Below are positions 1 through 8,753 of a stretch of DNA of 8,753 nucleotides, piece after piece. This DNA is from Planctomycetota bacterium. Its GTDB lineage: Bacteria; Planctomycetota; UBA1135; UBA2386. Positions within the stretch are counted from its first letter, which is position 1. Each line of letters begins with the position of its first letter. The stretch covers positions 1-8,753 of the forward strand of contig QJVU01000741.1 in the NCBI GenBank assembly GCA_003235605.1, written 5' to 3'. The notes beneath the pieces were generated by a model. It did no database searches and had not been told where the DNA came from. It saw only the letters and a list, made by a program, of their open reading frames with translations. A program made the translations under genes and the position numbers.

Positions 1-86
1 CAGCTGCCCGGGTAGTACGCGTGTTCGTACGCAGCTTCCGAGCTGCCCTTCTTGGGCGTATGGAACTCCTGGTCGCAAACCCACAG
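1..86 (-). CDS. PP2C-like protein phosphatase, N-terminal fragment (runs off left edge, non-standard start)
   Basis: Only about 28 codons are visible. The frame reads WVCDQEFHTPKKGSS followed by AAYEHAYYPG. I recognise this as resembling the N-terminus of PP2C-like phosphatases that follow TerY-type vWA genes, where an F-x-x-PK-x-GSS segment precedes an acidic/aromatic 'YEDAF.P' stretch. From memory only; no search was run. Coding support is good: 22 of 27 codons end in G or C, against 17 of 32 in the alternative frame starting at the ATG at 94-96. The frame is the same as that of the upstream vWA gene and follows its TGA (93-95) directly, but contains no ATG, GTG or TTG before the conserved block. 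The only near-cognate start is CTG at 84-86, so the start is a guess. If the call is right, it would dephosphorylate Ser/Thr targets, opposing a kinase expected farther left. No catalytic Asp residues are within the window. Confidence 0.5.
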   Translation of the reverse strand, partial: MWVCDQEFHTPKKGSSEAAYEHAYYPGS

Positions 87-92
87 CCTGGT

Positions 93-935
93 TCATCTCA
101 GGTTGCTGGGCCGCGTTCCGATATCGATGGCCTGTACCAGGATCACCATGTCGGCGTTCAGCACGAAGCACTTCGAGTTCTCCGACGGGCTGAAGCCGTG
201 CTCGCGGGCCAGTGCCGCCATGGTGGGCGTCAGTGGCGAAGCGGTCTCCAGGAGCATGCGCGAGTAGTCGTCCGGAAGCTGATCCGGAGAGTCCGGAAAC
301 AGGATCGGCTCGGCGTTCGGGTTGGCCGACAGGTGGATGTTGAACAACATCACGTTGCCGTCCGACGTGAACAGGTTGGTCAGGGCGCGGATCCGCTCGA
401 GCGGCTGCCCGTCCGTGGCCTCACCGTCGGTGATGTGGATCACGGTTGGTGGGTAGCCATCCGGGTGGGCGGCGATCCACTCATTGAGGACGCGTTCGGC
501 CTCACCAGCTGCCCGGCACATGGGTGTGCCACCGTCAGCCATCGGATCAAACCACACCGGAACGCGCACGGTCTGCTCGATCAGCCCGCCAGCACCGTCC
601 GGGATCTTCTTGGTGCGCTCCTCGAGCCTCGCGGGATGCTCGGCAATCTCGCTGATCGGGACCAGGTCCCGGCCGGCGATGTCGCCGACGAAGCTCGGGC
701 CCACGTTCTTGCCATAGCCGATGACGCCGACGTGATAGTAGTCACGCACACCCTCGACCTTCGCGCACTTGATCGACAGCTCCTGAAGCCACCGGTTCAC
801 GCTGTCGGCGACACCCTTTGCCTTCTGCTGGGTGTCGTCGCCAGCACGAATGTGCTCGTTCATCGACGTGGACTGGTCAATCAAGAACAAGAAGCAGGAT
901 GGACTCTCTCTGCTGATCTCTGCTGTGTATGCCAT
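93..935 (-). CDS. TerY-like von Willebrand factor A (vWA) domain protein
   Basis: A 280-residue vWA protein, close to full family length. The MIDAS metal site is complete: D20-x-S22-x-S24 in the segment FLIDQSTSM, T137 in GGTPM, and D170 in ITDGE. The N-terminus (MAYTAEISR...SCFLFLIDQS) and the C-terminus (NADMV...DIGTRPSNLR) both fit the family of vWA proteins encoded next to PP2C phosphatases and Ser/Thr kinases (TerY-P triads), so I take it as intact. It is probably a cytoplasmic Mg-dependent protein-interaction module; no signal peptide or membrane segment is seen. I chose the ATG at 933-935 because it begins the conserved N-terminus and has a GAGGAG-type ribosome site just upstream. The frame is open to an ATG at 1002-1004, but that adds 23 unconserved residues. 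It lies 177 bp downstream of the DUF4388 gene, and the next gene follows at once. The family assignment is firm; the partner and target are inferred. Confidence 0.9.
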   Translation of the reverse strand: MAYTAEISRESPSCFLFLIDQSTSMNEHIRAGDDTQQKAKGVADSVNRWLQELSIKCAKVEGVRDYYHVGVIGYGKNVGPSFVGDIAGRDLVPISEIAEHPARLEERTKKIPDGAGGLIEQTVRVPVWFDPMADGGTPMCRAAGEAERVLNEWIAAHPDGYPPTVIHITDGEATDGQPLERIRALTNLFTSDGNVMLFNIHLSANPNAEPILFPDSPDQLPDDYSRMLLETASPLTPTMAALAREHGFSPSENSKCFVLNADMVILVQAIDIGTRPSNLR

Positions 936-939
936 TGGG

Positions 940-950
940 CTCCTCGCCTC
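940..950 (-). promoter_or_regulatory. Ribosome binding site of the vWA gene
   Basis: Read on the minus strand, this stretch is GAGGCGAGGAG. The AGGAG core (940-944) ends four bases before the ATG at 933-935. It decides the start in favour of this ATG over the upstream in-frame ATG at 1002-1004. The remaining 177-bp gap (936-1112) between the two genes shows no convincing -35/-10 pair or terminator stem-loop by eye, so the vWA gene may be transcribed together with the DUF4388 gene upstream. Confidence 0.6.
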
Positions 951-1112
951 GTCCTCACTCGCAATAACGAAGTTCTCTTCCAAACTCCTTCGGTTTCGAC
1001 GCACTCGCGCCAGCTTCTTGAGCCAATCTTCGGGACCTGTCTGCGCGCCGGAATCGATGCCACGCCATGGGGCCTGGGTGATCTCGGTCAGTCCGGAATC
1101 CCCACTTGCCCC

Positions 1113-2465
1113 TCAGGTTCGCCGAATCCACCGGACCGGCCAGCTCCTCCGTACCTGCTTGACGTCTTGCGGAGACTCTTCGATCTCGTCTTCGAATTCA
1201 CCCTGCTGTTCGTGCTCGGAGTGCTCTTCGTACTCACCGTACTCTTGATCGTCGTCGTACTCTTGATCGTCGTCGTACACTTGATAGCCGTCGTACTCTT
1301 GAAGGTCGTCGTACTCTTCGTACTCGCCCTGTGCCGTGGGGTCGCCTTCCATGTATTCCTCGACCCCTTCGAACTCATGGCGGACTGTGTCGTCGAAACT
1401 ACCGCCTTGGTCCCAGGGCTCCACCTGGCCGAACAGCTCCCCCTCGACAGCCGCCGGGGCCTCCGACCCCTCTGCCGGCTCGATCGGATCTGGTCGCTCG
1501 AGCTCGTCCTGCCTGCGCGCGCTCTCCAGCAGCAGCCTGGTGACGTTCATCCGAATGCGTTGCTCGACGCCTGATGTCTCGCCCTCATAGAACGAGAAGT
1601 TGCAGTTGTTGGCCGCATACAAGCGGTTGAACAGCTCCTGCACCTGCGCCTCCAAGGCAAGCTTGAGGTCTTCACGCGACACCAGCTCTTCATGGTCGGA
1701 GGAGTCGTCAGGGCTGGCATAGGGGTTGAACCGCCGGTAGAAGTCCTCGAGCTGCTCGGTGCCGATCTTGTCGCGGGCCACCAGGATGCTCCCCAGCAGC
1801 TGCTCGTCGGTCGAACGATCGCTGGATGCATGCACGATGTCGCCTTCGAGGATCTCCAGCGTGAACGTCTCTTCCGTGTTGGTGAGGTAGAGTGTTCCGG
1901 ATTGACGGTTCACGCTCAGGAACTCGAGGATGCTCGCAATCGGTAGCTTCTTCGTGGATCCCCTGAGCTCTGGCTCTGGCAGCGGTGCAGTCTGCTCCGG
2001 CCCGACCTGCTCCGCGGCAACCTGCTCCGGTCCGGGAAGCTCCGGTCCGGCCTGTTCCGGCCCGGGATGCTCCGGCTCGGGAAGCTCCGGCCCGGCCTGT
2101 TCGGGCGACGGGACAGGAGAGGTCCCTCCGACTGGGGCGGGTGGCACGGGCTGCCGCGCCGGCGGTAGGGACGGTGGCTTCATGGCTGCGGCCGCCCATG
2201 CCGGCGGGCCCGATGGCGCAGGTGTCCCGCCAGCGGCCGCACCGCCGGACGGAGGCCCCACGACGAGCTGCCGCACGTGGTCCATCCACCAGGGCTCCTT
2301 GGCCTGCGTGGCAGCATTCCCGTGCTCCCCGTGCTCCCCGTGCTCCGCGTGCTCCGCGTGATCCGCGTGATCCGCGTGCGCTGCCGACTCCGTCCGCTCT
2401 GCCTGCTGATCGGTTTTCTCCTGCTTCTGCGGGCCAGGGTCCGTCGTGTTGCTCTGCTCAGCCAT
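1113..2465 (-). CDS. DUF4388 (PATAN-like) domain protein with repetitive disordered flanks
   Basis: A 450-residue protein in three parts. Residues 1-165 are low-complexity: a His-Ala/Gly-Asp/Glu repeat (about 27-50), a short WWMDHVRQLVVG segment (59-70), a Pro/Ala/Gly linker and a Pro-Glu-rich repeat (121-161). Residues about 167-320 form a DUF4388 domain, with the typical pattern LPIASILEFLSVNRQSGTLY, then FTLEILEGDIVHA, LLGSILV and a helical C-half ending MNVTRLLLESARR. Residues about 330-450 are very acidic, with a Tyr-Asp-Asp-Gln-Glu hexapeptide repeat (about 380-411), and the protein ends in a short basic patch (RRSWPVRWIRR). DUF4388/PATAN domains occur in bacterial signalling proteins, often with response regulators, and are thought to mediate protein contacts. 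No enzyme motif is visible, so I read it as an adaptor or scaffold. Start: the ATG at 2463-2465 opens the hydrophilic region; the frame reaches an ATG at 2664-2666 that would overlap the divergent gene. It is first in the minus-strand run towards vWA and PP2C. Confidence 0.82.
   Translation of the reverse strand: MAEQSNTTDPGPQKQEKTDQQAERTESAAHADHADHAEHAEHGEHGEHGNAATQAKEPWWMDHVRQLVVGPPSGGAAAGGTPAPSGPPAWAAAAMKPPSLPPARQPVPPAPVGGTSPVPSPEQAGPELPEPEHPGPEQAGPELPGPEQVAAEQVGPEQTAPLPEPELRGSTKKLPIASILEFLSVNRQSGTLYLTNTEETFTLEILEGDIVHASSDRSTDEQLLGSILVARDKIGTEQLEDFYRRFNPYASPDDSSDHEELVSREDLKLALEAQVQELFNRLYAANNCNFSFYEGETSGVEQRIRMNVTRLLLESARRQDELERPDPIEPAEGSEAPAAVEGELFGQVEPWDQGGSFDDTVRHEFEGVEEYMEGDPTAQGEYEEYDDLQEYDGYQVYDDDQEYDDDQEYGEYEEHSEHEQQGEFEDEIEESPQDVKQVRRSWPVRWIRRT
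1239..1328 (-). repeat. Five tandem 18-bp repeats encoding Tyr/Asp/Gln/Glu hexapeptides
   Basis: Five consecutive 18-bp units lie at 1239-1256, 1257-1274, 1275-1292, 1293-1310 and 1311-1328. The first two are identical; the third and fourth differ at a few positions; the fifth is diverged. In the DUF4388 protein they encode variants of DDDQEY, giving a highly acidic, tyrosine-rich disordered segment. The identity of the first two units suggests recent slippage or unequal exchange, so copy number may vary between strains. Confidence 0.85.
1985..2105 (-). repeat. Degenerate Pro-Glu-rich coding repeat
   Basis: Imperfect repeats built on gctccggcccg/cctgttccggcccg variants encode GPE-Q/L/H-x units, residues about 121-161 of the DUF4388 protein. 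The units vary in length and sequence, so this is an old or diverged repeat. It probably forms an extended linker between the His-rich N-terminus and the DUF4388 domain. Confidence 0.65.
2322..2375 (-). repeat. Six tandem 9-bp repeats encoding a His-(Ala/Gly)-(Asp/Glu) tract
   Basis: Six 9-bp units follow one another: two gtgctcccc, two gtgctccgc and two gtgatccgc (plus-strand reading). They encode His at every third position, spaced by Ala/Gly and Asp/Glu. With the flanking copy this gives seven histidines (H30, 33, 36, 39, 42, 45 and 48) in the DUF4388 protein. The paired units suggest stepwise duplication. A His/acid tract of this spacing can bind divalent metals, but nothing here proves that it does. 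Confidence 0.8.
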
Positions 2466-2654
2466 GGTCCATCCCCATATCGTCGGTCGAGGGGGTCGCA
2501 CTACAGCCGGTTCCGGATCGGGTTGCTCTTCGAGAACCGGCCTTGATTCGCCGGTCTCGTCGGGGATTCTGCCGCAGGCGCAATGTCCCCGGGCATGGGA
2601 GCCGATGAGAAGGGACCAACCTGATCCCACCAGTAGCACCATCGAAAGACCCGG
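2466..2654. promoter_or_regulatory. Divergent intergenic region between the DUF4388 and helicase genes
   Basis: These 189 bp separate two genes facing away from each other, so promoters for both should lie here. I see no convincing sigma-70 boxes in either direction: TTGATT at 2543-2548 has a 17-bp spacing to ATTCTG, which is a poor -10. The clearest element is the inverted repeat listed separately (2531-2559). The ribosome sites are weak: GAAAG about 8 bases before the helicase ATG, and GGGGA about 8 bases before the DUF4388 ATG. The frame of the DUF4388 gene stays open across the region, but that extension would overlap the helicase gene and looks non-coding. Confidence 0.6.
2531..2559. repeat. 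Inverted repeat (possible operator or 5'-leader hairpin) in the divergent promoter region
   Basis: The left arm CGAGAACCGGC (2531-2541) pairs with the right arm GCCGGTCTCG (2550-2559): ten base pairs with one bulged A, around the 8-base loop cttgattc (2542-2549). No T-run follows on either strand, so it does not look like an intrinsic terminator. Its position about midway between two divergent genes suits an operator controlling both, or a hairpin in a leader transcript. Confidence 0.5.
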
Positions 2655-5600
2655 ATGTCCGCTCAAGAAGCCAAGGAACGGCTACTCCAGCTCCTCGACT
2701 ATGTACAGCACATCGTGCGGCTGCCCGAGCGCGCGCGGTTCTCGGTCAAGGACAGTGGTAGCTTCGTCTACCTGCAGGAGAACCTTCACAACCAGATTGG
2801 CGTGCAGTTCGACGTTCGCGGGCCGCAGGGTCGGTCGTGGCTCAAGCTGGTTCGGCTGCAGCGGATCGATCCTCCCGAGGTGCCTCCGGAGCTGAAGGGG
2901 TGGATCTCCATGATCCGGAATCCGTTCCGGGAGCCGAAGGTGGCTTCGGAGCGGACCGAAACCGTGACGGCGGCCGAGGGACAGACGCTGGTCGAGCAGG
3001 GTCTCGTCGATCCCCAGGAGATCAAGAAGATCCGAAAGCTCTCACCCAACAAGGAGAAGCAGGTCCAGGTAACGCGACGCCTGCAGAAGGACGGCGCCCT
3101 CAGCGAAGCCGTCGGCAAGTACCTGGGTGGTCCGTGGCGGCGGTGGGCAGAGATGGAGAAGCCCCGGCGGTCTGCCATGAAGATATACGACGACTTCTTC
3201 AAGCTGCACCAGTCGATCCAGGCTGGGGCGGTCGAAGCCCCCGTCGAAGTAGTCTGGGGCATAGGAGTGGCAGTCTGGAAGACTCATTCCGGCACGATCA
3301 AGCACCCTCTGATCGAGGTCCTGGTGGAGATCGACGTCGATGCGGAGACGAACGACATCCTCGTCCGGCGGCGCAACACCGACCCCACGCTGTTCATCAA
3401 GCAGTTCTTCAATCTGGACAGTCCCGGCCTGGTCAAGCTCCAGGAGGAGGCCAGGAAGTACTTCGAGGAGTTCCGGAAGGGTCAGGACCATCGCGACTTC
3501 AGTCCGTTCGTCAAGGAGACCTTCGAACCGCTGTTGCGGTTGGCTACGACGCTGCTGACCGCCTCGGCCCAGTACTATCCCGACGTTGCTGACGACCCGA
3601 AGAGCGTGGCGCTGCCGGAACCGACGGAAGTGCTGCAAATCACCGACACCTGGGCGATCTACGCGCGTCCGCGCAGTGACAACCTGTTCTACGAAGACAT
3701 CGAGCGCCTGAAGAAGATCGTGGAGGACAGCGACTTCGACTCGTTGTCGACGGCCGCCCGCAAGTTCGTGGCAGACCCCTCGGATGCACCTACCTACGAG
3801 CCGCGGCAGGTGAACCTGCTGGGAGGGCTGCGGGACAAGGCCGGCGATATCGAGGTGAAGGGCAGCAGACCAAAGGATGCGGAGTACGAGCTGTTCTTTC
3901 CCAAGGAGTACAACGACGCACAGGTCAAGATCATCCACGAGCTCGAGCGCTCCGATGGAGTGGTGGTGCAGGGTCCGCCCGGGACTGGGAAGACCCACAC
4001 GATCGCGAACATCATCTGTCACTATCTCGCCACCGGCCGGCGGGTGCTGGTCACCTCCCAGGGCGAGCCGGCGCTGAAGGTGCTGCGCGAGTTCATTCCC
4101 GAGGAGATCCGCCGCCTGACGATCAGCCTGCTGACCAAGGACCGTGAAGGCCTGCAGCAGCTGGAGACCGCGGTCACGCTGCTGGCAAACGAGGTCACCC
4201 GGATCGTGCCCGAGCAGATCGAGAGACAGATCATCGACAGTGAGCGAAGGCTCCGCAAGCTGGGCGCGCAGATAGAGGCGAACGAGCGGGCCGTGCGTGA
4301 GATCGCCGAGCGGCAGCTGACCCCGCATCAGCACGAGCTGTTCGGGAAGGATCCGGTGAGTCCATCGGAGCTTGCCAAGCACCTGGCTGGCGTGCGCAGC
4401 CGTCATGAGTGGCTGCCGGACAACCCGAGCCTGGATCCGAAGTTCGATCCCAGGTTCAACGCCGAGCACATTGCAGCGGCAAAGCAGGCCCGGAGGCGGC
4501 TGGGGAAGGACCTCCAGTACATCAGCAGCAAGCTGCCGACGATCAAGAACCTGCCCGACAACTCGAAACTCCAGGAGATCCACGAGCGGATCATCAACGC
4601 GGATCAGAACGACCCGCATGCCCAGGATCCTGACTTTCCGAAGCTATCCGTGCTGGCGGAGAACGCCCTGGTACGGGCCGCCGAGCTGAGCGGCAAGCTG
4701 CGGACCCTGGTCCAGGTGCAAGACCTCGTTGCGCCCCACCCCTGGCTGGCGGAGCTCCTGCGGACCTGGCTCGAGCTCGGGTGCCACTGCCCGGCAACCA
4801 AGCCCTTCGACGACCTTATCCCGGATCTGCAGAACCTCGCCGAGCGGGTTCCCGTGTTCGAGGTGCGGCCGGTGGAGATACCGGACCTGGGCGATCATGC
4901 CGAGACCGTGCTCGCGGCCGTGGCGCGCGCCGCCAAGGGCCGGCGCCCCTTCGGCGCCTTGGGGCTGGGGGGAAGTCGGGCAAAACAGCTGTTTGCGCAG
5001 GTCACCGTCGACGGCGAACCGCCGGTGAACGCCCAGGCCTGGCAACACGTGGAGGACTACCTCCAGCTCTGTGACGATGCCTATGTGGTGGCCCAGGAAT
5101 GGAACGCCATCGCCCAGCAGTTCTCCCTGCCGCTGGTGGACGAGGCCAGCGCCTGGGTGGCGCCCTCCCTGACGCAGTATTTCGACCTGATCATCAGGGC
5201 TTGGCGGGTGGCGGACTCCAACGACCTGAGGCAGGAGATCCCCGAGCTGTTCCCCCACGGCATCGACGTGGAGGACGTGTACTGCAACCGGGAAGCGGCC
5301 CTGAGGGCCATCGAGGCTGCGGAGGTCAACCTCACCCGGCACGAGCGAGGCTCTGCGCAGCAGCTGGTCGATCGCCTCCACAGCGCACTGGATGGGTGCG
5401 AAGGTCCGGTGGTGAAGGAAGCTGCGCTGTTCCTGCGGGGGAAGGTGGGGAACCAGCTGGTCCGGACCAGCGAGATCAGCTCCAAGTGGGACTCGCTGCT
5501 GGCTGACCTGAAGCGCGTGCACTCCTATGCCCGGGACTTCGAGGTGGTCCGGAAGCTGGCAGAGCTGGTAGAGCGATCGGGGGCTCCCAAGTGGGCCGCG

Positions 5601-7601
5601 GCACTGCGCACGCAGCCGGTGATCGGCGACGTCGACCCCTGGACGCCGGACTGCGCGATGGAGTCATGGAACTGGAGGCGGCTGGCGACCTACTTGCAGA
5701 GCATTGACGGGCGCGGTCCCCTTCGCGAGCTTTCCCGCCAGTACCTGGCTCTCGAAGCGGAGCGAAAGGTCACGCTCACCGAGGTTGTCCGGCTGCGTAC
5801 GTTCCTCGGTCTCTATGTGAACATGACCGACCTGGCCAAGAGCGCGCTGGTGCGGTTCACTGCGGCGATCCGCCACATCGGTTCGGGTGACGGTAGCCGC
5901 TCTCGGCGCCACAAGCGGGACGCGCAGGACGCCATGAACGACTGCTACGGCGCGGTGCCGTGCTGGATCATGCCGATCTGGCGCGTGTCCGAGACGTTGC
6001 CCCCGGAGATCGGCTCCTTCGACCTTGTGATCGTCGACGAGGCTTCACAGTCCGACATCCTGGCCATGCCGACGCTGTTGCGAGGACAGAAGCTCTTGAT
6101 CGTTGGCGATGACAAGCAGGTCAGCCCGGTGGCACCCTTCGTCGAGGAGCGCAAGCTCGTTCAGCTCCGCCAACAGCATCTCAACAACCAGATCTTCGTG
6201 GATCTGATGATCCCCGGAAGCTCGCTCTACGATCTCGCCAACGCCGTGTTCTCGGGACGCCGGATCATGCTCGACGAGCACTTTCGCTGCGTCGAGCCGA
6301 TCATCCGCTTCAGCTTCCGCTTCTATCCGGAGAAGATCATCCCGGTCCGGATCCCGAAAGCGTCGGAACGCCTGGAGCCGCCGCTGGTGGATGTCTATGT
6401 GCCTGGTGGCAAGCGCGACAAGAAGAAGATCAACCACCCCGAGGCCAATGCCATCGTCGACGAGATCGAGAGGCTGGTGAACGACCCCGCATTCCGCCGC
6501 CGCACCATCGGTGTCGTGTCGCTCATCGGTGCCCAACAGGGCGAGTACATCCAGAAGCTCCTGCTGCGTCGCATCGGCCAGGAGAAGTACATGCGGCACC
6601 AGATCGACTGCGGCGATTCGGCGACCTTCCAAGGCCGCGAGCGGGACATCATGTTCGTGAGCATGGTCCAGAGCAAAGGGCGCATCGCCGCCCAGACAGC
6701 GGTGATCTACGAGCAGCGCTTCAACGTGGCGATGTCCCGCGCCCGGGACCGCATGTACCTCTACCGCAGCGTCGAGCCTGCCGACCTCAACCCGAACGAC
6801 CTGAAGGCCAAGGTCATCGAGCACTTCACGCTGAAGCCGGAAGGAGTCCGCGAGAACGTCGAGGACCTCGCCGACCTGTGCGAGACCGACCTGGAGCGCT
6901 CGGTCTACGAGCGCCTCCTGGCCCTGGGCTACCGGGTCACGCCACGGGTGAGCGTGGGCGACCATTCGATCGACCTCGTGGTGGAGGGAGCCGACGACCG
7001 GCGGCTGGCGGTGGAGCTGGATGGCGACCGCGACCAGACCGCCGACGAGTGGGTGGCGCACTGGTCCCAGCAGAAGGTCCTGGAAAGGGTTGGCTGGCGC
7101 TTCTGGCGCTGCTGGGCTTCGAGCTTCGCCCTGGATTCGGAAGCCTGCATGAAGGACCTGTTGGACGTTCTCGCCGAGATGGAGATCGAAGCGATCGGGC
7201 AGGTCAAGGTGCAGAGCATCCACTCCGAGCAGCGGGTGATCGAGGAGATCGCAGACGACGATGCCACCGAGGAGAGCGTCCGCGCCGCCCGGGAGGCGGC
7301 AGAAGAGCTTGAGGCGCTGGAGAGCAGCGATGCCAAGGACGAGCCCGTCGTGGCGGTGGGAGACCGCATCCTGGTGTCGTACAGCGATGACCCGTCCCGC
7401 TACCGCACGCTGGTGATCAGCGAGTCCGAGCACGATCCCGAAAACGGCATCTTCATCTCCTCGGACCCGGTGGGACAGGCGCTGCTGGGAGCGGCCGTCG
7501 GCGAGGAGATCGAGACCCGCCTCGACGACAACACCCAGCGCGTGCTGACGATCTTCGAGATCGAGAAGTCCAGGACCGAGGCGTCCCTGTCGAGGACGTG
7601 A
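2655..7601 (+). CDS. Large SF1 helicase fused to a PD-(D/E)XK (MTES_1575/DUF559-type) nuclease and a GreA/GreB C-terminal-like domain
   Basis: A 1648-residue cytoplasmic protein. Residues 1-~410 are an N-terminal region of unknown fold, including a WGIGVAVWKTHSG...HPLIEVLVEIDVD block (from about 200). The SF1 helicase (UPF1/AAA_11-AAA_12 type) has Q423 (Q-motif), Walker A GPPGTGKT (440-447), motif II DEAS (1128-1131), motif III GDDKQ (1151-1155), DEHFRC (1207-1212), motif V TFQGRERD (1324-1331) and motif VI NVAMSRARD (1357-1365), all intact. About 680 mostly helical residues, including a coiled coil near 520-560, separate Walker A from motif II. Residues about 1412-1490 look like a Vsr/DUF559-type nuclease: E1414, D1440 in SIDLVVEG, E1454-L-D1456-G, K1474. 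After an acidic linker, residues about 1565-1640 (VGDRILVSY...DPVGQALLGAAVGEEIE) match the pattern of the GreA/GreB C-terminal domain, which docks on the RNA polymerase secondary channel. It is divergent from the DUF4388-vWA-PP2C run. It probably translocates along and cuts nucleic acid. The helicase call is firm, the nuclease strong, the GreA-like call good; substrate unknown. Confidence 0.9.
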   Translation: MSAQEAKERLLQLLDYVQHIVRLPERARFSVKDSGSFVYLQENLHNQIGVQFDVRGPQGRSWLKLVRLQRIDPPEVPPELKGWISMIRNPFREPKVASERTETVTAAEGQTLVEQGLVDPQEIKKIRKLSPNKEKQVQVTRRLQKDGALSEAVGKYLGGPWRRWAEMEKPRRSAMKIYDDFFKLHQSIQAGAVEAPVEVVWGIGVAVWKTHSGTIKHPLIEVLVEIDVDAETNDILVRRRNTDPTLFIKQFFNLDSPGLVKLQEEARKYFEEFRKGQDHRDFSPFVKETFEPLLRLATTLLTASAQYYPDVADDPKSVALPEPTEVLQITDTWAIYARPRSDNLFYEDIERLKKIVEDSDFDSLSTAARKFVADPSDAPTYEPRQVNLLGGLRDKAGDIEVKGSRPKDAEYELFFPKEYNDAQVKIIHELERSDGVVVQGPPGTGKTHTIANIICHYLATGRRVLVTSQGEPALKVLREFIPEEIRRLTISLLTKDREGLQQLETAVTLLANEVTRIVPEQIERQIIDSERRLRKLGAQIEANERAVREIAERQLTPHQHELFGKDPVSPSELAKHLAGVRSRHEWLPDNPSLDPKFDPRFNAEHIAAAKQARRRLGKDLQYISSKLPTIKNLPDNSKLQEIHERIINADQNDPHAQDPDFPKLSVLAENALVRAAELSGKLRTLVQVQDLVAPHPWLAELLRTWLELGCHCPATKPFDDLIPDLQNLAERVPVFEVRPVEIPDLGDHAETVLAAVARAAKGRRPFGALGLGGSRAKQLFAQVTVDGEPPVNAQAWQHVEDYLQLCDDAYVVAQEWNAIAQQFSLPLVDEASAWVAPSLTQYFDLIIRAWRVADSNDLRQEIPELFPHGIDVEDVYCNREAALRAIEAAEVNLTRHERGSAQQLVDRLHSALDGCEGPVVKEAALFLRGKVGNQLVRTSEISSKWDSLLADLKRVHSYARDFEVVRKLAELVERSGAPKWAAALRTQPVIGDVDPWTPDCAMESWNWRRLATYLQSIDGRGPLRELSRQYLALEAERKVTLTEVVRLRTFLGLYVNMTDLAKSALVRFTAAIRHIGSGDGSRSRRHKRDAQDAMNDCYGAVPCWIMPIWRVSETLPPEIGSFDLVIVDEASQSDILAMPTLLRGQKLLIVGDDKQVSPVAPFVEERKLVQLRQQHLNNQIFVDLMIPGSSLYDLANAVFSGRRIMLDEHFRCVEPIIRFSFRFYPEKIIPVRIPKASERLEPPLVDVYVPGGKRDKKKINHPEANAIVDEIERLVNDPAFRRRTIGVVSLIGAQQGEYIQKLLLRRIGQEKYMRHQIDCGDSATFQGRERDIMFVSMVQSKGRIAAQTAVIYEQRFNVAMSRARDRMYLYRSVEPADLNPNDLKAKVIEHFTLKPEGVRENVEDLADLCETDLERSVYERLLALGYRVTPRVSVGDHSIDLVVEGADDRRLAVELDGDRDQTADEWVAHWSQQKVLERVGWRFWRCWASSFALDSEACMKDLLDVLAEMEIEAIGQVKVQSIHSEQRVIEEIADDDATEESVRAAREAAEELEALESSDAKDEPVVAVGDRILVSYSDDPSRYRTLVISESEHDPENGIFISSDPVGQALLGAAVGEEIETRLDDNTQRVLTIFEIEKSRTEASLSRT

Positions 7602-7605
7602 GGTC

Positions 7606-8753
7606 CTAGGCTTCCCCCCCCATGTCCGCAGACTTCGGCGGCGTGGTCTTGTTGGTCTTGGACGGCGGCGTTTTCTTCGGCCTGGTCTTGGTCTTGGCCT
7701 TGGTCTTGGCCCCGGTCTTGCGCTTGGTCGTGGGCGTTGGCTCCGGCCTTGCCGCCTGCTCCGCCTCGCCCGTGGCGGCGAAGCTCACCGCACGGCGCGC
7801 CTGCGGATCCCAGAGCCGTGGCGGAATCGCGAAACGAAGGTCTTCGAGCTGGTGGGGGCCGCCGTCCCACATGTGCCTCGTGTTCACCGTGGCCTCGACC
7901 ACGGCCCAGAGCACGGCGTGTTCGAAGGGATCTCCCGGCTGCGGCAGGTTCGCGGTCATCATGTCCAGGCCCGCCGCAGCCACCAGGGAACCCGGGCCGG
8001 TGAGGCCCGCCACCACGAGAACCAGCTGTCCCTCCTGGCGTTGAGCGGCCAGCACACCGTAGCTGTGGATCCTGGTCTCCAACCTCGTGGTCCCTGACCC
8101 CGCCCTGCGCTGGAGAGCTGCCTCGGAGCAGAAGGAGTCCTCGCCGGCAATCAAGACCCAGCCCTTGCCTTCGCGGACGTAGGCCGCCAGGTCCGGGTGG
8201 GTCTGGGTCAGCTCATCCAGGGGTCGGGAGAAGTTGCTCGCCACGCCATCCTGCTCGTGGTTCAAGAACCCGAAGCTGAACGGCAGCTTGTCCCATCCGC
8301 CGCGTGTCTTCTTTGGTCGCCGGAACATCAAGCGCAATGCAAGCTCGCTGGCCCTGTTTGAGCGAGGGGAGCCCATGCAAGCCAGTGCAGCCGGTCCTTT
8401 CTTGCCCCGCTTGCGGAACTGGTTCTTCCATTTCCCGAACGGGGTACCCGCTTTTTCCTGACGGCGCTGCACATAGACCTGGGTGAACTTGACAGCGGGG
8501 CCATGCTGGTTCACCGCTTGCTGGATCTCGGCAACACCGTGATCGTCCCAGTAGTTGGTCATCGGACCATCCTCCGAGCTGAAGCGACTCGGGATGAAGA
8601 TGGTCGTCTCGGAGCTCTGCGCCAGATCCTGGACCAGGGAAGGAAACTCGAACAGCGCAGATCGGGTCAGTTCGTGGTTGAAGTACACATCCAGAGCCTC
8701 CCACTCGACGATGCTCATGCTCACGCTGCGATCGTATGTGGCGAGCTTGGACA
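7606..8753 (-). CDS. Unrecognised protein with a Lys/Thr-rich C-terminal tail (5' end beyond right edge)
   Basis: I do not recognise this gene. The frame has a GTG at 8722-8724 and an ATG at 8716-8718 but stays open to the right edge. The extra codons read SKLATYDRS and mostly end in G or C, so the true start probably lies outside the window and at least 382 residues are coded. Numbering from the GTG, residues 1-110 are mixed alpha/beta with a basic end (KWKNQFRKRGKKG). Residues about 185-262 hold a block of the form GWVLIAGEDSF...HSYGVLAAQR...LVLVVAGLTGPGSLVAAAGL, which resembles a 'Y-x-v...vvaG-x-x-G-x-g-T/S-x-aA' pattern I associate loosely with bacterial regulators, without a firm family. 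Residues about 332-364 are a Lys/Thr/Pro repeat resembling histone H1-like tails, suggesting nucleic-acid binding. It converges on the helicase gene with four bases between the stop codons. It could belong to the same locus or to an unrelated neighbour. Confidence 0.7.
   Translation of the reverse strand, partial: SKLATYDRSVSMSIVEWEALDVYFNHELTRSALFEFPSLVQDLAQSSETTIFIPSRFSSEDGPMTNYWDDHGVAEIQQAVNQHGPAVKFTQVYVQRRQEKAGTPFGKWKNQFRKRGKKGPAALACMGSPRSNRASELALRLMFRRPKKTRGGWDKLPFSFGFLNHEQDGVASNFSRPLDELTQTHPDLAAYVREGKGWVLIAGEDSFCSEAALQRRAGSGTTRLETRIHSYGVLAAQRQEGQLVLVVAGLTGPGSLVAAAGLDMMTANLPQPGDPFEHAVLWAVVEATVNTRHMWDGGPHQLEDLRFAIPPRLWDPQARRAVSFAATGEAEQAARPEPTPTTKRKTGAKTKAKTKTRPKKTPPSKTNKTTPPKSADMGGEA
7684..7731 (-). 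repeat. Short-period repeat encoding a Lys-Thr-rich tail
   Basis: On the plus strand this is a run of ggtctt/ggcctt/ggtctt-type units. Read on the minus strand it gives alternating Lys-Thr and Lys-Ala (KTGAKTKAKTKTRPKKT) near the C-terminus of the unrecognised protein. It is a low-complexity basic tail, typical of disordered DNA-binding extensions. Confidence 0.6.

Follow-up and report, generated by a model that had tools for sequence, protein, structure and literature searches.

TerY-P triads join TerY, a vWA protein, to a PP2C and a Ser/Thr kinase (Anantharaman 2012 and Gao 2020, as cited in PMC11090510). According to the sections of PMC11090510 that treat them, these triads often occur in CoCoNuT types II and III-A and are hypothesised to work as switches of systems that process DNA; modules resembling TerY-P but with an OB-fold kinase have been shown to act as stand-alone defence. 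The same sections describe, in CoCoNuT type III-B, a Vsr-like nuclease fused to a UPF1-like helicase, a type that they report never to contain TerY-P. Anti-phage activity of TerY-P in Pseudomonas aeruginosa PAO1 appears in the relevant part of PMC10889362, and that of PMC4978471 describes a cluster in Helicobacter pylori that combines TerY-P with helicase- and nuclease-encoding genes; the relevant parts of PMC12458937 and PMC10250203 contain nothing decisive on how TerY-P and helicases are related. We analyzed a stretch of 8,753 nucleotides from a Planctomycetota bacterium (the window; contig QJVU01000741.1, assembly GCA_003235605.1), in which a TerY gene lies near a gene for a giant helicase-nuclease. 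The window probably records two independent defence modules that adjoin in one planctomycete defence neighbourhood, accompanied by two lineage-specific genes.

The window contains five genes, three on the minus strand at the left, the helicase-nuclease on the plus strand and an orphan on the minus strand at the right:

1..92, minus strand: putative beginning of a PP2C-like gene, truncated by the left edge after some 30 residues (translation, shuffle comparison, third-position GC)
93..935, minus strand: TerY, vWA protein, 280 residues, metal ion-dependent adhesion site (MIDAS) intact (PADLOC PDLC02224)
1113..2465, minus strand: DUF4388 (PATAN-type) protein, 450 residues (PF14332)
2466..2654, no strand: intergenic stretch of 189 bp that separates the divergent DUF4388 and helicase genes
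2655..7601, plus strand: helicase-nuclease-Gre fusion, 1648 residues (Pfam, alignment)
2655..3884, plus strand: conserved N-terminal region of the helicase-nuclease, residues 1-410, without family assignment
3909..4421, plus strand: first helicase (RecA-like) region, AAA_11, Walker A GPPGTGKT
6018..6758, plus strand: second helicase region, AAA_12, with Walker B DEASQS, GDDKQVSP, EHFRC and SRARDR
6894..7169, plus strand: MTES_1575 PD-(D/E)xK (Vsr-like) nuclease domain (PF18741, E 4.3e-23)
7341..7565, plus strand: GreA/GreB C-terminal (Rnk-like) domain (PF01272)
7606..8753, minus strand: orphan gene, convergent with the helicase gene, its 5' end past the right edge

Linkage of the TerY and helicase genes in other genomes

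Genomes were sampled from the phyla of three loci titled Akkermansiaceae, Chloroflexi and Deltaproteobacteria, with Planctomycetota outside the sample. TerY was detected at E <= 1e-10 in 33/301 genomes of the phylum of G002, 2/288 of that of G003 and 1/297 of that of G004, and 24 of the 36 TerY regions were fetched at 5-20 kb each, leaving out G695, G735 and ten weaker matches. Relatives of both PP2C and kinase were present in 22 of the 24, TerY lying at a contig end in both misses; the order was TerY-PP2C-kinase in 21 regions, and in L102 the PP2C and kinase genes were upstream. None of the 24 regions held a relative of the window helicase or of the DUF4388 protein (tblastn, E <= 1e-4). Across 25 TerY genomes, no DUF4388 was found on the contig of TerY at a distance of 100 kb or less; 13 of these genomes carry the domain elsewhere, with up to 10 matches per genome and the nearest same-contig copy 158 kb off. 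The nuclease family of the window protein, MTES_1575, likewise had no copy closer than 20 kb to TerY in the 25 genomes, six of which have it over cut-off, the copies nearest to TerY being about 20.5 kb (G866) and 70 kb (G372) away.

The picture from the helicase side was similar. Our set of 39 helicase loci comprised 12 genome-contig loci, 4 plasmids, 17 genome regions (6/6 genomes of one helicase scan and 11/56 of another) and 6 more, L112 and L123 being repeats of L008 and L012, and no relative of TerY, PP2C or the kinase was found in any of the 39. In the 12 genome-contig loci the helicase is 32-35% identical to that of the window, and none is titled Planctomycetota. Co-occurrence within a genome was counted with the helicase at E <= 1e-40 for the phyla of G002 and G003 and at E <= 0.001 for that of G004; for the phylum of G002, TerY and the helicase shared 1/301 genomes against 1.75 expected, lying 2.2 Mb from each other, and for that of G004 they shared 0/297. 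A first-pass annotation of this DNA had proposed a single system of TerY-P, DUF4388 and helicase, whose five genes might recur together across genomes. Neither the 24 TerY regions nor the 39 helicase loci show such a recurrence, and the proposal of a single system is left unsupported in the three sampled phyla.

The TerY-P module and the DUF4388 gene

TerY matches the PADLOC TerY model from end to end (1-277 of 277, E 2.1e-96). Its score against Pfam vWA is below threshold (20.2 bits, cut-off 23.8), making the PADLOC model the better test of TerY identity. The MIDAS residues are in place (DQSTS at residue 20, GGTP at 135 and TDG from 169), as the first-pass annotation had noted in naming this a TerY-like vWA gene, and the protein is 41-59% identical to the TerY of loci L087-L101.

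The next gene after TerY, on the same strand, is represented by a PP2C-like peptide of 30 residues that runs to the left window edge. Third-position GC is higher in its frame (0.83) than in the other two (0.53 and 0.50), and no ATG, GTG or TTG was seen in this frame at positions 1-92. The comparison set for the peptide was the N-terminal 140 residues of 23 PP2C open reading frames (ORFs) from TerY loci, with 300 shuffles for each. Its motif, F..PKKGSSEAAYEHAYYP, was equalled or exceeded by just 0-3 of 300 shuffles in nine of the 23 ORFs, was marginal in five (8, 8, 10, 22 and 50 of 300 shuffles) and found no match in the remaining nine. These nine are L087 and eight long ORFs of more diverged triads; in the eight, the 140 residues used may stop short of the PP2C part. 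We accept the peptide as a probable PP2C start, from the resemblance of its 30 residues to the N-termini of TerY-linked PP2Cs, in line with the earlier identification.

The earlier claim that a TerY-P-type module begins here agrees with the full-length TerY match followed by the PP2C-like start. The window would hold the front of a triad consisting of a metal-binding vWA protein, a PP2C and a Ser/Thr kinase expected past the left edge, and may act as a phosphorylation switch, following the published hypothesis. The kinase of such triads can bear a C-terminal OB-fold or zinc ribbon. It resembles the described triads (those cited in the corresponding sections of PMC11090510) in having TerY with its MIDAS and then a putative PP2C-like start on the same strand, and differs from them in the DUF4388 gene just upstream of TerY. 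Kinase-type models were matched by 8/114 TerY neighbours in the sampled genomes. Extra kinase-type genes, distinct from the triad kinase, directly precede TerY in the same orientation at L105:10551-12164, L125:9406-10989 and L126:7785-9374, and they match PD-T4-6, mad6 and the kinase part of MkoA.

The protein encoded upstream of TerY carries a DUF4388 domain, which we take to be a PATAN-type domain, and scores far over the cut-off of PF14332 (75.4 bits, cut-off 25, E 5e-21). This finding and the shared strand bear out the earlier placement of a DUF4388 protein ahead of TerY, at a distance of 177 bp. We set the start of the gene at 2465 because its relatives begin MAEQSN or MTEQ, giving a protein of 450 residues versus 517 for the raw ORF, with a Pro-rich N-terminal region, the DUF4388 domain and an acidic, Tyr-rich tail. 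The tail (1113-1500, minus strand) has nine Tyr in its last 110 residues. At least seven relatives are listed, one of them from a named Planctomycetota metagenome-assembled genome (MAG). PATAN response regulators have been tied to type IV pili in cyanobacteria, in the pertinent part of PMC7690835.

The helicase-nuclease and its Gre-type domain

The giant helicase-nuclease described in the first-pass annotation as divergent to the DUF4388 gene is present on the plus strand. Pfam identifies AAA_11, AAA_12, MTES_1575 and GreA_GreB domains in its 1648 residues, and Walker A, Walker B, GDDKQ, SRARDR and the nuclease motif D...ELDGD are all preserved. A profile of 23 aligned sequences, the window protein and 22 relatives, matches UPF1, SEN1, SMUBP-2 and DNA2 in the PDB, and the MTES_1575 domain is present in all 23. 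These similarities point to a UPF1-like motor that would travel on nucleic acid and a Vsr-like nuclease that would cut it. The N-terminal region (residues 1-410) is also aligned in all 23 sequences and is modeled by AlphaFold with a predicted local distance difference test score of 86; it has no match among PDB folds with E <= 0.001. In two of the 22 relatives the Glu of ELDGD is replaced, by Gly in P0002, the closest relative, and by Gln in P0005. Our protein search recovered at least 2289 relatives at E <= 0.001 from 7996 candidates scored, with the best 120 listed, and the two nearest are 76% and 67% identical to the window protein.

The protein is of the broad Hhe/ProA-like kind, with superfamily 1 helicase motifs and a PD-(D/E)xK nuclease in one chain. 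Its best NCBIfam match is the anti-phage protein ProA (NF058533, E 3.1e-56; model 1283-1812 of 1903), the best stretch spanning the second helicase half, the nuclease and the C-terminal region of the window protein. Full membership in ProA was rejected at 190.7 bits versus a curated cut-off of 1500. It shares with Hhe (NF042953, PADLOC PDLC02194) the combination of a helicase and a nuclease part in one giant protein; full membership was rejected here as well (127.9 bits versus a cut-off of 2000, and no DUF4011 among Pfam families at E <= 1). The best PADLOC match is to the candidate system PDC-S37 (E 1.7e-53, window residues 1102-1553), followed by Mokosh MkoA (PDLC03920), of which model positions 786-1070 of 1112 match the window helicase (E 2.5e-34). 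MkoA carries a kinase in its own chain (model 8-283) and the window protein instead has nuclease and Gre-type domains; Mokosh was rejected, as Pfam finds no kinase domain in the window helicase protein. We regard the helicase-nuclease as a probable stand-alone module of the ProA/Hhe/PDC-S37 kind.

At the end of the chain, residues 1563-1637 match the GreA_GreB C-terminal domain PF01272 (33.8 bits, cut-off 26.9). The GreA/GreB N-terminal coiled-coil domain has no corresponding Pfam family in the window protein, in which the helicase-nuclease precedes the C-terminal domain. By Pfam hmmscan the Gre-type domain is present in 22/23 aligned sequences. Among the 120 listed relatives, the window protein included, it was found in 111 with a hidden Markov model built from the Gre region of the same 120, and precomputed Pfam makes the stricter PF01272 assignment in 79. 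A PDB search with the Gre region returned Rnk (3bmb) as the sole match at E <= 1 (E 0.0018). The C-terminal domains of Gre factors, like Rnk, are RNA polymerase-binding. The Gre-like tail, a 75-residue domain match, suggests docking of the helicase-nuclease on RNA polymerase, which would probably lead it to act on transcribed invading DNA. A literature search found, by titles, no description of a Gre, helicase and Vsr defence protein or of an MTES_1575/DUF4011/DUF3320/ProA architecture.

Defence setting of the helicase family

Relatives of the helicase on plasmids lie in recognizable defence settings, one beside a DUF4194 and AAA cluster that is of the Wadjet type by annotation reading, and others beside restriction-modification and AbiE genes or beside BREX genes. 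In the 17 genome regions, the 136 ORFs lying no more than 6 kb from the helicase matched 75 PADLOC families at E <= 1e-20, and BREX, DISARM-type, methyltransferase and AriA models are among the 25 of these families shown; control ORFs (133 of 182 ORFs, from 17 regions of 11 of the same genomes) matched 11. These tallies count models and not genes, as one gene can match several models. A Pfam tally of the helicase neighbours was uninformative. The tie to phage defence that the earlier annotation had drawn for TerY-P is in keeping with the literature cited above, and these neighbours extend it to the helicase family; both modules may serve phage defence in this planctomycete.

Viral contigs yielded five helicase relatives, two of which (L129 and L131) were outside the TerY check. 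One, L127, is near a resolvase and a type I HsdM. In the IMG/VR contig L130 the helicase relative is at 191-4789 and a terminase large subunit gene at 11204-12907, with about 6.4 kb between them, an arrangement that suggests prophage carriage. The ten proteins scanned from around closer-type relatives (L161, L045, L127, L128 and L130) include one HsdM and one with weak pAgo-type hits; the other eight are, by Pfam, transporter, transposase, recombinase, terminase or carbohydrate-binding proteins or have no family.

Other features of the window

The orphan gene and the Gre-type domain are two features absent from the first-pass annotation. At least nine homologues of the orphan protein are listed, one from a named Planctomycetota MAG; the full-length ones are about 75 residues longer N-terminally, and GSPRSN- and AGLTGPG-type motifs are conserved among the listed homologues. 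The orphan protein matches no Pfam family at E <= 0.1. Searches of viral contigs with TerY, the DUF4388 protein and the orphan as queries returned no relatives of any of them. The DUF4388 and orphan genes look like lineage-specific genes outside both modules. A whole-window scan found no sigma-70-like promoter in the 189-bp divergent intergenic region, and promoter- and terminator-like sites across the window did not exceed the level of shuffled sequences.

Discussion

The interpretation of the window as two adjoining defence modules is supported by the absence of recurrent linkage from both sides, but a number of observations weigh against it. The make-up of the sample leaves room for a combination specific to the Planctomycetota, and the helicase relatives found in genomes are mostly 29-39% identical to the window protein, remoter than its two nearest protein matches. 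In the phylum of G003, TerY and the helicase do share 1/288 genomes (G372), 69 kb apart, with 0.04 expected (hypergeometric P 0.04). Published TerY-P triads are linked to helicase-containing systems in the pertinent sections of PMC11090510 and PMC4978471, and the MkoA model joins a kinase and this type of helicase in one chain. As for the helicase-nuclease as a defence module in itself, its scores are far below the thresholds that NCBIfam sets for ProA and Hhe, eight of the ten closer-type neighbours have no PADLOC match at E <= 1e-8, and the proposed docking is based on a match of 75 residues.

Some of these points are the strengths of the alternative in which the window encodes one system, with a TerY-P phosphorylation switch controlling the divergent helicase-nuclease and the DUF4388 protein serving as readout or substrate. 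The genes are adjacent, the cited sections of PMC11090510 link TerY-P to the UPF1-like helicases of two CoCoNuT types (II and III-A), those of PMC4978471 place it alongside DNA-processing genes, and MkoA supplies a precedent: its positions 8-283 match kinases that precede TerY at three loci (3/10 proteins checked), and, given its single chain of kinase and helicase, control of such a helicase by a kinase would be mechanistically plausible. The lack of recurrence in three phyla and the separate transcription units, with the helicase divergent and 177 bp between the DUF4388 and TerY genes, nevertheless make this arrangement unlikely. A regulated link between TerY-P and the helicase in the window's single lineage is possible. 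Its most elaborate form, in which a defence helicase-nuclease anchored to RNA polymerase through its Gre/Rnk tail samples DNA under transcription and cuts invading genomes at stalled polymerase, under a TerY-P switch relayed by DUF4388, strikes us as decidedly doubtful.

A more limited association, in which the DUF4388 protein is a lineage-specific addition to TerY-P, its acidic tail perhaps a phosphorylated target, and the helicase is separate, also appears quite unlikely. The gene shares its strand and order with TerY, and in L105, L125 and L126 a kinase gene fills the same place upstream of TerY, so that accessory genes can sit there. Besides the tyrosines of its tail, the window protein has the acidic motif FDDT once, and three of the seven listed relatives have it in varying number (two in P0121, three in P0123 and one in P0124). 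However, P0122 lacks FDDT and P0125-P0127 lack the tail altogether, the gap to TerY is 177 bp, and a domain with as many as ten copies in a genome was never near TerY in the 25 TerY genomes. The window might also represent a CoCoNuT-like type IV restriction system, in which the helicase-Vsr protein would be CnuH, TerY-P an accessory, and CnuB and CnuC would lie outside the window. The fusion of a UPF1-like helicase to a Vsr-like nuclease is indeed that of type III-B CnuH, but the relevant sections of PMC11090510 do not list a Gre-type domain among those of CnuH and report TerY-P to be always absent from type III-B, and the four window ORFs scanned against Pfam, NCBIfam and PADLOC gave no match to CnuB/McrB or CnuC/McrC. 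We consider this highly improbable.

In conclusion, two adjoining defence modules remain the arrangement we favour, and the adjacency of TerY-P and the helicase-nuclease in this planctomycete should not be read as a conserved system in the sampled genomes. The Gre-type domain also yields a hypothesis open to testing, one that concerns a whole large family linked to defence: if the docking is true, the tail domain would aim the nuclease at actively transcribed invading DNA.

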